Of a stretch of 44,344 nucleotides of DNA, positions 35,167 to 41,260 are shown piece by piece. This DNA comes from an uncultured Pelagibacteraceae bacterium (GTDB lineage: Bacteria; Pseudomonadota; Alphaproteobacteria; Pelagibacterales; Pelagibacteraceae). The notes beneath the pieces are model-generated. The model had not been told where the DNA came from, did no database searches, and saw only the letters and a program-made list of their open reading frames with translations. The stretch lies in contig CACMMU010000006.1 of the NCBI GenBank assembly GCA_902614835.1, positions 1 through 44,344 of the forward strand. The letters are read 5' to 3'. Within the stretch, counting starts at the first letter, position 1. Each line of letters starts with the position of its first letter. Position numbers and translations under genes: made by a program.

Positions 35167-36543
35167 ATGGAAATTTATCAAAAACAATCCTTTGCAGATT
35201 CTTTTAAAGTTTATTTAGACAAAAGAATGCTTCGCATTTTATTGTTGGGAATAATAAGTGGTTTTCCTTGGGTTATTATTGGAAGCAGTTTAAGTCTCTG
35301 GTTAAAGGAAGATGGACTTAGTCGAAGTACGGTTGGTTGGGCAGGTTTAATATTTGCAGTCTACGCATTTAATTATTTGTGGGCTCCATTAATTGATAGA
35401 ATTCGTATTCCTTGGTTAACTAATAAAGTTGGACATCGTCGTGGCTGGATTATATTTATGCAGCTAGTTATCTTACTAAGTTTGGTTTCTTGGTTTCTTC
35501 TGGACCCAACAGCAAATCTTGCATTAGTGATTACAATTGGTTTAGTTATTGCAATTGCCTCAGCAACCCAAGATATTACTGTTGACGCTTTAAGAATTGA
35601 ACAGATTGGAAAAAATGAGGGAAAATCAATGCAGGCCGGGGCTGCTATGGCTGTAGTTGGTTGGTGGACTGGATATAAACTTGGTGGTGTAATCGCTCTG
35701 AACGCAGCAGAATATTTTGAGAAAGCAGGTTTTGAAAATTACTGGCAGCTTACTTTTCTGGTACTAGGTATAGTTATTATAACATGCAATATTGCTTTGA
35801 TGTTTGTTCATGAATCGCAGCCTACGGAAAGACAAGAGGCTCAAAGAAAAACTGACGAGATGATTCAAAATAAGCTGGGGTCCCCAAATTTTTTAACAAA
35901 GTCTGCTGCATGGATTAGCGGCACAATTGCTGGTCCTATATTAAGTTTTTTTAAAAAAAATGGATTTAAAATTGCTCTTGGTATTTTAGGATTTGTATTT
36001 CTTTTTAAGATTGGAGAAGCATTTCTAGGAAGAATGTCCATAATATTTTATAAAGAAATAGGTTTTTCAAAAGCAGATATAGCAATATATTCTAAAGGCC
36101 TAGGCTGGATTACCACAGTTATTTTTACTCTTTTGGGTGGGCTATTTGCTATCCGTTCTGGGGTTATCAAAGCCATGTTTGTCTCAGGAATTTTAATGGC
36201 GTCAACAAATCTTTTGTTTTCTCTGCTTGCTTGGTCAGGAAAGTCTGAATTGTTGTTTGCCATAGCTGTAATTTTTGATGATATGGCTGCAGCTTTTGCA
36301 ACTGTTGCCTTTGTTGCTTTCATTTCGATGTTGGTAGATAGAACATATACTGCAACTCAATATGCCTTGCTCGCTTCAATTGGAACAGCTGGCAGAACTA
36401 CATTGGCAGCATCTTCAGGTGCAATGGTAGATTGGCTTAATGGTGACTGGGGGATATTCTTTATAATCACAGCTATTATGGTTATACCATCTTTAATTTT
36501 TCTTTATTTTATAAAAAACGATATCAAATTAAGTGAAAAATAA
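35167..36543 (+). CDS. ampG: AmpG-like muropeptide permease (MFS)
   Basis: The product has 458 residues with about 12 to 14 membrane segments. AmpG features are ISGFPWVIIGSSLSLWL at the first helix, YLWAPLIDRIRIPWL, GHRRGWIIFMQLVILL, then DPTANLALV and ASATQDITVDALRIEQI. It imports anhydro-muropeptides from the periplasm for cell-wall recycling. The neighbouring NlpC/P60 enzyme overlaps it by 11 bases and could process the imported peptides. By my count 6 of 14 Arg codons are CGN, more than in trkH, so codon bias is not uniform here. Confidence 0.85.
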   Translation: MEIYQKQSFADSFKVYLDKRMLRILLLGIISGFPWVIIGSSLSLWLKEDGLSRSTVGWAGLIFAVYAFNYLWAPLIDRIRIPWLTNKVGHRRGWIIFMQLVILLSLVSWFLLDPTANLALVITIGLVIAIASATQDITVDALRIEQIGKNEGKSMQAGAAMAVVGWWTGYKLGGVIALNAAEYFEKAGFENYWQLTFLVLGIVIITCNIALMFVHESQPTERQEAQRKTDEMIQNKLGSPNFLTKSAAWISGTIAGPILSFFKKNGFKIALGILGFVFLFKIGEAFLGRMSIIFYKEIGFSKADIAIYSKGLGWITTVIFTLLGGLFAIRSGVIKAMFVSGILMASTNLLFSLLAWSGKSELLFAIAVIFDDMAAAFATVAFVAFISMLVDRTYTATQYALLASIGTAGRTTLAASSGAMVDWLNGDWGIFFIITAIMVIPSLIFLYFIKNDIKLSEK

Positions 36544-37276
36544 TTTTGGAAATAATTTACCTGTAATTAATCTTTATAAAAAAAAGAGCCTTAAATCTCC
36601 AATTGATTCACAATTGCTTTATGGCGATAATTTTAAAATTATAAAAAAATTTAGTGGTTGGAAAAAGATTAAAATAAAAAAGGATGGCTATGTAGGTTAC
36701 ATTAAAAACAAAAAATTACATAGCCCGATCAAATCAAATTTCAAAGTTTCTGTTGTAAAAGCAAGGGTCTACAGTAAGCCCAATCTAAAAAGAAAGTTGA
36801 ATAAATTTCTTCCCTATGAATCAAGACTAAGAATAGTAAAGAAGAGTGGTAAGTTTGGTAAATTTGAAAAATACTGGATTAAAATTTCTGATGTTAAAAA
36901 AATTAATTTTAAAAAAAAAAATATTTTTAAAGATGTAATGTTGTTCAAAAATACAAAATATTTATGGGGTGGAAAAAGTTATAAGGGTATTGACTGTTCT
37001 GCCTTGGTTCAAATTTTCTTTAATCACAATAACAAATTTTGTCCTAGGGATTCTAAAGATCAAGAAAAGTTTTTTAAGAAAAAGGTAAAAATTAAAAATA
37101 TAAAAAAAAATGATATGATTTTTTGGAAAGGGCATGTTGCAATAGTCTTGTCAAAAAATAAATTAATACATGCTTACGGTCCCATGAAAAAGGTAGTTAT
37201 AATGGATATAAAGAGAACAATTGAAAGAATAAAAAGAACTGCTAATTTACAAATAACTAGTATAAGGAGAAACTAA
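36533..37276 (+). CDS. NlpC/P60 family endopeptidase with SH3-like domains
   Basis: The product has 247 residues. The C-terminal NlpC/P60 domain shows the catalytic triad: Cys in GIDCSALVQIFF, His in FWKGHVAIVLS and a third polar residue in KLIHAYGP. NTKYLWGGKSYKGIDCS is the usual lead-in. Two SH3-like segments precede it (GWKKIKIKKDGYVGYIK and YWIKISDV). It should cut bonds in cell-wall peptides, for example the gamma-D-Glu to diaminopimelate bond. No signal peptide is seen, so action on recycled peptides in the cytoplasm is possible. The start is GTG inside the end of ampG. Confidence 0.87.
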   Translation: MKNNFGNNLPVINLYKKKSLKSPIDSQLLYGDNFKIIKKFSGWKKIKIKKDGYVGYIKNKKLHSPIKSNFKVSVVKARVYSKPNLKRKLNKFLPYESRLRIVKKSGKFGKFEKYWIKISDVKKINFKKKNIFKDVMLFKNTKYLWGGKSYKGIDCSALVQIFFNHNNKFCPRDSKDQEKFFKKKVKIKNIKKNDMIFWKGHVAIVLSKNKLIHAYGPMKKVVIMDIKRTIERIKRTANLQITSIRRN

Positions 37277-37277
37277 A

Positions 37278-37346
37278 ATGCGATACGTGCTCTATGGAAT
37301 TGCCTTAGGATTCATATTTTATTTAGGCGATAAGTATTTGTTCTAA
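37278..37346 (+). CDS. Candidate 22-codon single-span membrane peptide
   Basis: The ORF has 22 codons, MRYVLYGIALGFIFYLGDKY followed by LF and a stop. An almost perfect Shine-Dalgarno sequence AAGGAG (37264-37269) lies 8 bases before its ATG, much better than most genes here. It starts one base after the NlpC/P60 stop. The hydrophobic stretch could span the membrane once. It could also be the remnant of a longer gene cut off by the insertion next to it (the tRNA-like repeat begins 4 bases after the stop). Confidence 0.4.
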   Translation: MRYVLYGIALGFIFYLGDKYLF

Positions 37347-37350
37347 TTGT

Positions 37351-37382
37351 CGGAGAGAGTGAGATTCGAACCCAAGATACGC
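37351..37382 (-). repeat. Imperfect copy of the 3' end of tRNA-Ser (left end of the insert)
   Basis: These 32 bases match 39365-39396, the 3' end of the intact tRNA-Ser(GGA) gene, at 29 of 32 positions in the same orientation. The part covers the 3' acceptor strand and T-arm. No matching 5' acceptor (GGAGAG) occurs within 90 bases, and the T-stem has lost a base pair, so it cannot be a working tRNA. A weak resemblance to tRNA-Ser may continue towards 37430, so a decayed whole tRNA gene is the alternative. Confidence 0.6.
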
Positions 37383-37439
37383 GAAAGGGGTCCTGTTTTG
37401 AGGTTTAAAACGCGCACTTACTAATCGCAAAAAAAATAG

Positions 37440-37445
37440 TATAAT
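37440..37445 (+). promoter_or_regulatory. Probable -10 box giving a leaderless transcript
   Basis: A perfect TATAAT ends only 6 bases before the oxygenase ATG, so transcription would start at or next to the start codon. No ribosome binding site is present in the T-rich gap. A weak -35 candidate is CTTACT (37417-37422), 17 bases upstream. Confidence 0.45.
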
Positions 37446-37451
37446 TTTTTT

Positions 37452-38447
37452 ATGAAAACGTCTCGAGACAAATTAAATTCCAAGAAATCTGATACCACCG
37501 ATATCAGTAAGCCTTGGGATAAAGATAATCAAGCCTGGTGGGACTGGTATGTTGGTCTTGCAGACAATAATATTAAAAAGGATCCGATAATCACTGCTGA
37601 GCCTTTACCAGATGTTTCAATCCCCAGTAATGATGAAGTTCTCTCTGAACTAACCGAAACTTATCCTTTGACGAATGAACAAATAGTTTTTTTTAAAAAA
37701 AATGGTTTTATTAAACTCAAGAAAGTTTTTTCGCCTGGGGTTGTGCTAAAACTTCGAACTGAATTGATCAACCTATTAAAAAAAGAATTTAATGTTGATC
37801 CTGATAAAGAAGCACATGACCGGTTCCTTAGTCTTGAAATGATCTGGCCCAAAAACAAATTTCTACGTGCATACGTATTGTCACCCCGTCTAGGACAAAT
37901 CTCTGCAGATCTACTTGGAGTCTCGGCAGTTAGACTTTACCATGATAATGTTTTAGCAAAACAAGCTGGTTGTGGTAGAACGCCATGGCATTTTGATGAC
38001 CATCATTTTCCATTAGACACTAATGATGTAGTTACTGCTTGGGTACCAGCACAACCAACCCCAATAGAGATGGGACCTCTCTCTTTCGCCTATCCGCTAG
38101 ATGTACATAATCTAGTTAATTCTGTTAAATTTGAAAAGACTGGTACTGGCTATGACCGAGGTGTATCTGAAGTTTTTAAAAAAAATGGTGTAGCTGTAAA
38201 TGAAACTCCATTTGAGTTGGGTGAAGTTAGCTTCCATCATAATTTAAATTTTCATACTGCATCAAGAAATCGAACTAATCGTAGCCGAGTTGCTCTTGCA
38301 AATACTTATTATAGAGATGGGGCCCGGGTAATAAATTCCCCTACAATGGTATCTGGTGATTGGCAAAAATTTATGCCAAATATAAAACCTGGCGAAGTGG
38401 CTGCTAGTGCCTTAAATCCAATTTGTTGGCCAGTTGATGAAAAATAA
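37452..38447 (+). CDS. Phytanoyl-CoA dioxygenase (PhyH)-like Fe(II)/2-oxoglutarate oxygenase
   Basis: The product has 331 residues. The iron-binding HxD is in PWHFDDHHFP (about residues 178-187) and the distal His in FHTASRNRTNRSRVAL, whose Arg should bind 2-oxoglutarate. MGPLSFAYP lies between, as in PhyH proteins. An N-terminal extension with PWDKDNQAWWDWYVG is unusual. It probably hydroxylates a small molecule, but the substrate is unknown. Arg codons CGA, CGT and CGG are frequent, unlike most neighbours. It overlaps the methyltransferase start by 11 bases and lies in the tRNA-Ser insert. Confidence 0.85.
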   Translation: MKTSRDKLNSKKSDTTDISKPWDKDNQAWWDWYVGLADNNIKKDPIITAEPLPDVSIPSNDEVLSELTETYPLTNEQIVFFKKNGFIKLKKVFSPGVVLKLRTELINLLKKEFNVDPDKEAHDRFLSLEMIWPKNKFLRAYVLSPRLGQISADLLGVSAVRLYHDNVLAKQAGCGRTPWHFDDHHFPLDTNDVVTAWVPAQPTPIEMGPLSFAYPLDVHNLVNSVKFEKTGTGYDRGVSEVFKKNGVAVNETPFELGEVSFHHNLNFHTASRNRTNRSRVALANTYYRDGARVINSPTMVSGDWQKFMPNIKPGEVAASALNPICWPVDEK

Positions 38448-39354
38448 AGATATAAGTGATCAGAGTGGCTTAAAATCAATCTGGACTGATAATCTTGCTA
38501 ATAATAAACAGCCAGACAGTAAAGCGTTACTCGCTCACCTAAGAACTGTGCATCAACATCACGCTGGTTTTACTGAGAAGTGTGCAAGCACTTGTCGGGA
38601 TAAGTCTGGGTATAACAGTTACGAATGGCTAGCTGAAATTGTGCCTGATATCGAGGGCACTCGAGTTTTGGATCTTGCTTGCGGATCAGGACCATTATTA
38701 AAAATTTTGCATGATCGAAATAAAAATCTCAAATTAAAAGGGGTAGACATGTGTCCTGAAGAATTAGCACTTGCTAAAGCGCGTATGTCAGACGATGCGG
38801 TCGATCTATTTAAATTAGAGGCACAAAATTTGACTTCAATTAAAGATAATTCAATTGACATTGTGCTATGCCATTGGGCTTTGACACTCATGGACCCAAT
38901 TGCCCCAGTGTTAAATGAAGTGCGTCGTGTACTATCCTCAAATGGAAGATTTGCAGCATTGATTAATGGGCCTATGAGTGGAGCACCAAGTTATAGCGAT
39001 GTACATAATTTAATCTATGGATATGTGAAATCTAAGCTACCTAGTTATGGTGAGATTGATTTAGGAGATCCAAGAATACGTAGCGAAAATAGTTTAAATA
39101 ATCTTGTTAGTGAAGCTTTTCCAGAAGCTAACGTAAGTGTCGAAAACAATATAGTATCTATGGAAGGACCTGTTTCTGAGGTTGCCGAAACTGCTGCAGG
39201 ATTTTTTTATGCTTCGTTTATCTTGTCACCAGATATCCGTAGAAAAATGCTTTCAGAGTTATCCAACCTTCTTGACATATCAAAACAAAGCGGAAGCCTG
39301 GAAAGGTGGGGAAGATTTGCAATGCCAGTTAGTAGATTGGTAGTTAAGAAGTAG
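38437..39354 (+). CDS. Class I SAM-dependent methyltransferase (type 11-like)
   Basis: The product has 305 residues. Motif [16 protein letters not shown] (about residues 76-90), then [16 protein letters not shown] (motif II) and [20 protein letters not shown] (motif IV) define a Rossmann-type methyltransferase. [17 protein letters not shown] is the usual motif VI region. A His-rich N-terminal segment ([11 protein letters not shown]) and a C-terminal helical part may shape the substrate site. The ATG at 38437 is preferred to the TTG just before it. It probably methylates the product or substrate of the oxygenase it overlaps, which is an inference from operon structure. Confidence 0.87.
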
Positions 39355-39361
39355 TTTGCAA

Positions 39362-39451
39362 TGGCGGAGAGAGTGGGATTCGAACCCACGAAACGGTTTC
39401 CCGTTTACACACTTTCCAAGCGTGCGCCTTCAACCACTCGGCCACCTCTCC
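39362..39451 (-). tRNA. tRNA-Ser (GGA)
   Basis: This class II tRNA has a long variable arm. The acceptor GGAGAGG pairs with TCTCTCC, the anticodon arm is CACGC-TTGGAAA-GTGTG with anticodon GGA, the variable arm is AAACGG/CCGTTT, and the T-arm is GTGGG/CCCAC. The CCA end is encoded. Its 5' end directly abuts the lepA stop codon on the same strand. It serves as one end of the inferred insert at 37351-39361. Confidence 0.95.
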
Positions 39452-41260
39452 TTAAGTTTCTTTATTGATTTTAAGCACGCCAATAAAAGCTTCTTGTGGT
39501 ATTTCAACTCTACCAAATTGTTTTGCGCGAGCTTTTCCTTTTTTTTGTTTTTCCAATAGTTTTCTTTTACGATCCCTTGCCCCTCCTCCATGAATTTTTG
39601 TTAGTACGTCTTTTTTAAAACCTTTTATACTTTCCCTGGCAACAATCTTACCTCCAATGGCTGCTTGGATTGGTATCATGAAGTTATGTCTTGGAATTAA
39701 ATCTTTTAATTTTTCACAGACAAGTCTTCCTTGGTTTTGAGCAAATGCTTTATGAATTATCATAGATAAAGCATCAACTGACTCGTTGTTTACCAATATC
39801 CCTAATTTTACTAAATCGCCCTCTCTATAACCAGTAATCTCGTAATCAAAACTTGCATAACCACTTGTTATAGATTTTAGTCTATCATAAAAATCAAAAA
39901 CAACCTCATTAAGTGGAAGCTCATAAACTAAAACGGCCCTATTGCCCGAATAAGATAAATCTTTCTGAATACCTCTTTTGTCTTGGCATATTTTAATTAT
40001 TGATCCTAGATATTCATCTGGAGTAATAATAGTTGCTTTTATCCATGGTTCTTCAATAAATTTAATTTGAGATGGATCGGGCATAGTTGTAGGATTTTGA
40101 AGATCTACAATCTCATTATTAATTTTATTAACTTTATATACAACCCCTGGAGTTGTGGTTATTAAATTAATATCAAACTCTCTCTCCAATCTTTGTGTAA
40201 TTATTTCTAAATGAAGCAAACCTAAAAACCCACATCTAAATCCCAATCCAAGAGCGCTAGAAGATTCAGGTTCAAAAGAGAAACTAGAATCGTTTAATTT
40301 TAGTTTTGCCAAACCATCTTTGAGTTTTTGGTACTCTGAGCTATCTACTGGAAATAAGCCGCAAAATACAACTGGTTTGCTTGGTTTAAATCCAGATAAA
40401 GGTTTTTCTATTGGGTCGTTTGGATCACATATGGTATCTCCAACTTTTGTTTCTGATAAGCTTTTTATTCCAGTAATTATAAATCCAATTTCGCCCGCAC
40501 TTAATTCTTCAACATCTTTGGCTTTGGGTGTAAATACACCAACTTTTTCTATTTCGTAATCCTGATTTGTTGACATCAATTTAACTTTCATTCCTTTTTT
40601 AATTTTGCCATCGAGAACACGAACTAATATTACTACACCTAAATAACTGTCGTACCAACTATCAACCAACAAAGATTTAAGCTTTGATGATTGATTTCCT
40701 TTCGGAGTTGGAAGGTCTTTTACTATCGACTCTAAAATTTCCTCAACTCCTTCTCCTGTTTTTCCTGAACAAGAAATAGCTTTGGAAGTATCGATGCCAA
40801 TTACATCTTCGATCTGCTTTTTTACTTTTTCTACATCTGATGCAGGAAGATCTATCTTATTAAGTACAGGAATAATATGATGATTTGAGTCTAGAGCCTG
40901 GTATACATTTGCTAAAGTTTGTGCTTCAACTCCTTGAGAACTATCTACAATTAATACAGAGCCCTCACATGCAAGAAGAGAGCGGCTGACTTCGTAACTA
41001 AAATCTACATGTCCGGGGGTGTCAATAATATTTAAAATGTACTCTGAACCATTTTTTGATTTATAATTTAATTTTACTGTTTGTGCTTTAATGGTGATTC
41101 CTCTTTCTCTTTCTATATCCATGGAGTCCAAAACTTGCTCTTTCATCTCTCTTTCTGAGAGGCCTCCACAGATTTGGATCATTCTGTCAGCAATTGTTGA
41201 CTTTCCATGATCAATATGTGCGATAATCGCAAAATTTCTTACGTTTTTTATATGAGACAT
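39452..41260 (-). CDS. lepA: Elongation factor 4 (LepA)
   Basis: The product has 602 residues. This ribosome-associated GTPase back-translocates or remodels stalled ribosomes. G1 is AHIDHGKST, the switch-I segment is [14 protein letters not shown]3 is [12 protein letters not shown], and G4 is LNKIDLP. The EF4-specific C-terminal domain ends in the basic [19 protein letters not shown] and [18 protein letters not shown]. The length is normal. Its ATG overlaps the pheT stop by one base (TAATG). Its stop touches tRNA-Ser, so that tRNA is likely cut from the lepA transcript. Confidence 0.97.

Follow-up and report, generated by a model that had tools for sequence, protein, structure and literature searches.

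How do two genes come to lie, with no integrase beside them, between an intact tRNA gene and a worn copy of that gene's 3' end? The question is raised by a 44,344-nucleotide stretch of DNA from an uncultured Pelagibacteraceae (SAR11) bacterium (contig CACMMU010000006.1 of assembly GCA_902614835.1), which was analyzed at its full length and is referred to here as the window. Its source genome (G000; 858,459 bases in 38 contigs, approximately 79% complete, the window's contig being C6) was compared with a genus set of 31 genomes, itself included, and with a family set of 397 genomes. All of the evidence is computational and comes from sequence comparison. Few free-living cells have genomes as small as those of SAR11, and SAR11 populations nonetheless differ in gene content. 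Prophages are described as rare in SAR11 in the relevant passages of PMC7771536. We consider it probable that the tRNA-Ser(GGA) gene by lepA is an attachment site for tyrosine integrases, that mini-cassettes have been moved there in trans, and that the oxygenase-methyltransferase pair of the window is an old member of this group. The features of the locus, in gene order, are as follows.

36533..37276, plus strand: nlpC (NlpC/P60 with SH3 domains; Pfam PF00877), the conserved left flank of the variable interval, matched in 23 of the 31 genus genomes
37278..37346, plus strand: open reading frame (ORF) of 22 codons (MRYVLYGIALGFIFYLGDKYLF), part of the left flank, which adjoins the tRNA in the empty site of G003 as well (sequence reading and G003 alignment)
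37348..37385, minus strand: decayed, displaced copy of the tRNA-Ser(GGA) 3' end, putative remnant of the left attachment (att) site (28/32 to the window's own tRNA, 32/35 to another allele)
37402..37451, plus strand: probable promoter region of the pair (..AAAACGCGCACTTACTAAT..TAGTATAAT), assigned through comparison by eye
37452..38447, plus strand: PhyH-family Fe(II)/2-oxoglutarate oxygenase, 331 aa (PF05721, 4.8e-13)
38437..39354, plus strand: class I S-adenosylmethionine (SAM) methyltransferase, 305 aa counted from ATG (PF13847/PF08241)
39362..39451, minus strand: intact tRNA-Ser(GGA), putative integration target and reconstituted right boundary (ARAGORN, Rfam RF00005)
39452..41260, minus strand: lepA, the conserved right flank

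A preliminary description of this DNA had matched positions 37351-37382 to the tRNA 3' end (39365-39396) at 29 of 32 bases. The match itself holds up, and the count is corrected to 28 of 32, ungapped and in the same orientation. No other position in the window matches the tRNA end at 21/32 or more, and the best match in 60 dinucleotide shuffles of the window was 20/32 (mean 18.6). Local alignment widens the left copy to 37348-37381 when the window's own tRNA is used and to 37385 when the tRNA allele of some relatives is used. Neither ARAGORN nor Rfam calls a tRNA in the left copy, though both find the intact tRNA-Ser(GGA). The interval between the copies holds the PF05721 and SAM methyltransferase genes and no others, as had been described, and the methyltransferase stop codon lies 7 bp from the tRNA 3' end. 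The insert has an intact tRNA at one end and a displaced fragment at the other, the arrangement of a tRNA-targeted island, with just two genes between the copies and no integrase inside.

It was noted that, over 35 positions, the left copy shares 32 with the allele found in three relatives (G025, G026, G019) and 28 with the window's own tRNA. Because it is nearer to another allele, it fits integration, in which the displaced fragment would be the old allele and the restored 3' half the new one. The same mismatch was found in a second genome, G002, whose intact left copy is of the other allele. Among the 17 carriers of the pair, a remnant 5' of the oxygenase scored better than all 300 shuffles in four (G000, G019, G021, G011). 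These observations bear on a rival account, in which the pair are ordinary old genes of the lineage and tRNA-Ser was duplicated alongside them, one copy then decaying without any mobile element. The allele fit of the left copy speaks against such a duplication, and the left copy of G021 speaks for it, being a nearly whole tRNA-Ser with a changed anticodon that ARAGORN calls as tRNA-Tyr. The possibility that the left copy is a decayed second tRNA-Ser had been raised as an objection to integration; it is partly true of G021 and was not borne out otherwise.

We assessed the same locus across the genus. The nlpC gene and tRNA-Ser lie on one contig in 23 of the 31 genomes, the window's included. 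The remaining eight comprise three with the oxygenase/methyltransferase side only (G005, G008, G012), two with lepA on a short contig without the pair (G018, G020), and three that are unreadable at the locus (G004, G016, G023). The interval from nlpC to tRNA-Ser ranges from 77 to 5745 bp in the 23 genomes and differs in gene content. The pair is present in 17 of these intervals and absent in six, of which five (G001, G015, G025, G026, G030) hold other small ORFs, and some of the alternative cargo in relatives is bounded by tRNA-Ser 3' copies. The sixth, G003, is an empty site: nlpC and the same 22-codon ORF are followed by tRNA-Ser with no insert. Its junction is identical to the left junction of the window at 89 of 112 bases, and the flank alone scored above all 1000 simple shuffles. 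The preliminary description had expected relatives with tRNA-Ser next to the NlpC gene or with different cargo, and both were encountered. Its proposal of a layout left by tRNA-targeted integration without an integrase is supported by the repeat, the empty site, and the variable cargo.

The oxygenase was found in 20 of the 31 genus genomes at 87-93% identity to that of the window (three copies are cut at contig ends). The pair is therefore no recent private insert, and its insertion is either old or has been passed around by recombination. This wide occurrence agrees with the duplication account, while G003 does not, its empty site being closed up at the tRNA end. The divergence at synonymous sites (dS) was then compared between the pair and its flanks, with the 17 carriers placed into five clades by eye from the core tree and within-clade pairs dropped. 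Within the pair, median between-clade dS was 0.72 (oxygenase) and 0.59 (methyltransferase); for the flanking genes it was 1.31 (nlpC), 1.53 (pheS), 1.64 (ampG), 1.70 (lepA), and 1.92 (trkH), such that the pair stands at approximately a third to half of the flanking values. The oxygenase value was below that of lepA in 92 of 92 between-clade pairs and below that of trkH in 88 of 88. The G+C content at third codon positions (GC3) of the pair is slightly above that of the five flanking genes, which hardly accounts for the gap. The low dS of the pair indicates movement between lineages. Taken together, the empty site and dS disfavor duplication, which we regard as quite improbable even though it would accommodate a pair without the arm repeats described below. 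The many other inserts that share the same boundaries also stand against it. A history of presence at this locus in all relatives with vertical descent, which had been named as a refutation of integration, does not describe these data, since the pair is absent in 6 of 23 intervals and, judged by dS, its descent is not simply vertical.

An account by homologous recombination has several results in its favor. It holds that an incoming tRNA-Ser, together with flank homology, replaced the interval, with the left copy dating from an earlier insertion and no integrase acting on the pair. The low dS of the pair agrees with this, as do its lack of arms and the conflicting topologies of all the genes tested. 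The core topology was rejected for the oxygenase (log-likelihood difference 111) and the methyltransferase (377), and likewise for lepA (83), ampG (49), trkH (31), and nlpC (28) in a quicker tree search on 15-16 taxa. Because the control genes also reject the core tree, the topology test is non-specific, and reliance is placed on dS. The window's methyltransferase groups with those of G006, G012, and G029, apart from the core sister G002, and the end of the gene resembles that of G006 and G012, which again agrees with recombination. What this account leaves unexplained is the origin of the tRNA repeats and the match between left and right arms. We hold it to be possible and lean against it as the route of entry; it can also be reconciled with integration as a later spreading step.

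The arginine codon usage of the pair had been cited alongside the repeat layout, with ampG named as weakening the argument. The counts of CGN among arginine codons were reproduced (10 of 14 in the oxygenase, 8 of 15 in the methyltransferase, 0 of 7 in trkH, and 6 of 14 in ampG), and the pair ranks first and second for CGN share among the 36 window ORFs of at least 150 aa (63 of 441 in total); the argument drawn from them adds little to the case. The G+C content of the pair is 0.38-0.39 compared to 0.30 for the window, and its GC3 of 0.24-0.28 is just slightly high. The ratio of nonsynonymous to synonymous divergence (dN/dS; four pairs each) was 0.08-0.10 for the oxygenase and 0.14-0.22 for the methyltransferase, and on these values both genes look functional. 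The nearest solved structure to the oxygenase by sequence is SnoK (5epa, E 9.6e-13), and the operon likely belongs to a small-molecule pathway. A defense role of the cargo was considered and rejected: a PADLOC search of nine proteins gave two matches, a weak cyclase in G007a (E 0.0037) and mads_2 for the window's methyltransferase (E 7e-13), the latter being taken as a general methyltransferase match.

The pair was also encountered outside the genus. Twelve genomes of other genera (L254-L265) carry the oxygenase at 76-84% identity, followed by a methyltransferase homologue at 64-69%, and no tRNA was found beside the pair in their fetched flanks, a further point against duplication. Judged by eye, the probable promoter region at 37402..37451 has a similar counterpart in other SAR11 genera where the fetched flanks of the oxygenase contain no tRNA. 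The pair is followed by the same third-gene start in the eight other-genus loci that read forward. It was translated at L254, L256, and L261, and the one of these three submitted to Pfam is an EgtD-like histidine methyltransferase (PF10017). A homologue of this third gene occurs in 24 of the 31 genomes of the window's genus, where it is distant (41-48% identical, one fragment 54%) and located elsewhere. The pair looks like the promoter and two leading genes of an operon that is longer in other SAR11 genera, placed exactly between the tRNA copies.

The tRNA-Ser site holds many further inserts of this size. In G002, G014, and G007 (two in tandem), inserts of 535-1515 bp lie between full-strength tRNA-Ser copies, and these four genus inserts have near-identical ends and unrelated genes. 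A 30-base pattern of the tRNA end, run across the 397 family genomes, found two or three neighboring copies in eight further genomes of other genera. Copies bounding inserts were found in 6 of the 28 genus genomes scanned and in 10 of 19 further family genomes, eight of these having been preselected for neighboring copies. With copies of at least 22/32 (genus) or at least 22/30 (family) as the cut-off, 22 inserts were extracted from 16 SAR11 genomes, each 423 to 2401 bp long and holding one to three genes, a selection of loci and a partial census. They are variable gene cassettes between tRNA direct repeats, in the manner of additive islands, and no integrase was seen among their ORFs. Tandem arrays are present in G007, G104, G089, and G114. 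In most inserts the shared copy spans the tRNA 3' end to the anticodon stem; beyond it, many of the ends can be grouped into a few families, with 13 left as singletons. Two cassette ends were folded as RNA, and neither stood out from shuffles (z -0.66 and 1.39).

The cargo includes small secreted or membrane proteins, DUF805 and SHOCT proteins, a weak PhyH relative, and a 579-aa protein with the look of a beta-barrel autotransporter by eye and no Pfam match. Of 12 cassette or integrase-neighbor proteins searched against Pfam, nine had no family. A coiled-coil protein of approximately 520 aa occurs in five inserts: L177 (G104), L178 (G100), L179 (G089), L180 (G114), and L188 (G060). It was noted that its gene takes varying array positions, and that in four of the five the stop codon abuts the tRNA CCA end and there are no arm repeats.

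The ends of the cassettes carry a shared geometry. Paired 8-nt direct repeats, referred to here as arms, occur at both ends of 11 of the 22 inserts, with a period of 11 bp in all 11. Counted from the left copy's first base, the left pair starts 126-137 nt further on, and the right pair lies 66-69 nt before the right copy. Three inserts have arms at one end (G114b and G128 at the right end, G144 at the left end), and eight have none, namely three oxygenase-methyltransferase inserts, four coiled-coil inserts, and G130a. The repeat sequences vary between cassettes, yet they agree between the two ends of one cassette: the mean left-right distance was 1.25 compared to 3.61 in shuffled pairings (p 0.00015; eight independent cassettes, the four genus inserts counted once). 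The arm registers were chosen by eye and then checked by script. An automatic single-end search for pairs of at least 7/8 over periods 10-12 detected such pairs at 12 right ends and 8 left ends among the 22 inserts, always with period 11, compared to 4 of 681 same-length control windows searched at period 11 only; shuffles reached these pairs in 0-9 of 200. As half of the inserts examined keep arms at both ends, their integration and excision most likely take place in trans. The window's pair has no arms, and its own route of entry is thus one that we infer.

The arms could instead be operators or leader elements of the cassette genes with no part in integration. The right pair does lie just upstream of the cargo start codon in cassettes of the G002 type. 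Against this, the pairs are found at both ends, at near-fixed distances and past the 3' end of the gene as well, and their match links the two ends of one cassette. Similar pairs also lie upstream of 6 of 10 related integrases elsewhere, in regions longer than the control windows. We consider operators an unlikely explanation.

Integrases were found at the same tRNA in two genomes. G128 carries a 346-aa tyrosine integrase (PF00589, PHROG 1) between tRNA-Ser and the contig end. The integrase side has the pair CGACGACA-cac-CGACGACA at 77 nt from the tRNA, and the presumed other half, at a separate contig end, has GGACGACA-tat-GGACGACA at 167 nt after the tRNA copy. Two genes beside this integrase each have a homologue in G007b, a cassette without an integrase (E 6e-25 and 1e-9). 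The integrase of G036 is 47% identical to that of G128 and belongs to an element of approximately 5 kb (L247:4895-9810) that also encodes an AAA/helicase-primase protein and has a small-terminase match falling slightly short of the Pfam cut-off. This element lies on the tRNA-Ser/lepA side, between the intact tRNA-Ser and a displaced 5' half, and, judged by this arrangement, the satellite-like element appears to rebuild the tRNA's 5' half and not its 3' half. Among 12 related integrases in the 397 genomes, eight, that of G128 included, have a period-11 pair of at least 7/8 upstream; the G128 pair came from the single-end search and the other seven from a search in the style of the controls. Among the genus integrases found, none lies on the same contig as the tRNA-Ser of its genome. 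No relatives of the G128 integrase were found in viral contigs, and its 267 matches among phage records are all below 60% identity, with approximately 30% among the 15 matches listed. A short arm pattern matched viral contigs 33 times; blastn with the cassette ends gave merely 19-29 nt at six loci, and these matches were taken as chance. Four longer arm/att patterns had no match in viral contigs.

The related integrases sit at several tRNAs. Another integrase, at L197 (G005:C2), adjoins tRNA-Met with a phage-like primase fragment downstream by eye, and is a probable prophage or satellite.

Integration at this site would proceed as follows. The crossover would fall in the anticodon stem-loop region of tRNA-Ser(GGA), where the incoming DNA would restore the 3' half of the tRNA and push the old 3' half downstream, producing the direct repeat. 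Most probably, an integrase of the G128/G036 clade would use the anticodon region of tRNA-Ser as core and bind the repeat pairs of 11-bp period as its arm sites. Cassettes with core and arms intact could then be mobilized in trans by satellite integrases. Where arms were later lost, a cassette would become fixed or spread by homologous recombination. The window's pair, whose signature of integration is good, is probably an old, worn cassette, its arms gone or never present, and may have entered by integration rather than by homologous recombination.

A number of observations weigh against this reading. Arm repeats are absent from the window's insert, which has no space where they would normally lie, and seven other inserts are armless as well. 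All four genus inserts have a diverged second left repeat (5 of 8), and two of the 11 two-armed cassettes (G089c, G130b) break the left-right match. In G021, G014, and G007 the copies share the allele of their tRNA. The remnant 5' of the oxygenase matches less well in G024 (p 0.007), and 12 other carriers give no significant match, several of them showing a short tRNA look-alike at the same place by eye. The pairs of G128 lie further in than the cassette arms, and the ends of that element are on separate contigs. Both genomes with an integrase at this tRNA come from other genera, and no PF00589 match was found in the window's own genome, an assembly of the completeness given above. Viral contigs yielded nothing convincing when searched with the arm and att patterns. 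Finally, homologous recombination is frequent at the locus, as the rejected control topologies indicate, and could have moved the pair.

A broader proposal is that these cassettes constitute an integron-like system of SAR11, in which integrase-free cassettes of a single operon each have the 3' half of tRNA-Ser as att core, matching arm pairs at their ends serve as an address, different satellite integrases move different cassettes in trans, and loss of arms leaves behind fixed genes such as the window's pair. We put this forward tentatively, judging its chances to be slightly short of even. The integrase-free cassettes with landing-site-like ends suggest how very small genomes may swap genes. 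If integration in trans is correct, uptake of one to three genes per insertion at a tRNA would be a concrete and testable route of gene exchange in streamlined cells. The recognizable sequence of the ends would also allow cassettes to be found in metagenomes without an integrase gene as the query.

Several known systems resemble these cassettes in part. Cis-mobilizable elements (CIMEs) are att-flanked DNA without a recombinase of their own, derived from conjugative elements and larger. Like CIMEs, the SAR11 cassettes are att-flanked, lack recombination genes, and occur in tandem at one site; unlike them, they hold one to three genes, and half have arm repeats at both ends. In the passages concerned, additive flexible islands of tRNA-bounded gene cassettes with tRNA direct repeats are described for Candidatus Actinomarinales (PMC7771536), and such cassette islands of 330 bp to 42 kb for Candidatus Methylopumilus (PMC10872708). 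These share with the SAR11 inserts the small cassettes at tRNAs, the partial-tRNA direct repeats, and the streamlined aquatic hosts. They differ in lineage and in the tRNAs used, and those passages do not describe arm repeats, a helper integrase, or left-right matching. Tycheposons, as outlined in PMC10872708, are likewise tRNA-targeted cargo of marine bacteria moved with a tyrosine recombinase; they measure 4-200 kb and carry their recombinase, whereas the mini-cassettes measure 0.4-2.4 kb without one, and the window's insert, at 2.0 kb with no recombinase, falls outside that class. The G036 element resembles the phage-inducible chromosomal minimalist island (PICMI) satellites in being small and marine with an integrase and primase. 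It differs from PICMI as presented in the part of PMC10803314 concerned, next to fis and with AlpA, by its tRNA-Ser site and terminase small subunit match. The window's insert, without integrase, AlpA, or primase, is no PICMI. Clusters of attC sites lacking integron-integrases (CALIN) and miniature inverted-repeat transposable elements (MITE), as treated in passages of PMC11389934, are also recombinase-free units moved in trans through recognition of their ends; these are attC sites or terminal inverted repeats, compared to a tRNA core with direct-repeat arms in SAR11. The tRNA passages of PMC7318151, which surveys SAR11 genomes, and of PMC11898729, on Pelagibacterales islands, do not mention the site, and a literature search, mostly outside the reach of subscription papers, showed no report of it. 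Other streamlined plankton are already known to have cassettes bounded by tRNAs; what is new here is the arm code and the link to an integrase.

Further variation was noted around the locus. The interval between the 5' end of tRNA-Ser and lepA is a second place of variation and measures 1 to 5963 bp in the 23 genus genomes; no tRNA repeat was seen there in relatives, and several carry glycosyltransferase-like or sugar-nucleotide-like genes by eye. At L131 (G020:C26), purM-purN-ndk-pepA-like genes (by eye) adjoin tRNA-Ser and lepA. The purM-like ORF is fused there with a methyltransferase-like fragment, and the right end is of the cassette type; the locus may be a rearrangement or a chimeric contig. 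On the opposite flank, the 22-codon ORF at 37278-37346 is hydrophobic and conserved directly 3' of nlpC in nearly all of the relatives displayed, and in many of them it is followed by a second tiny ORF on the opposite strand.

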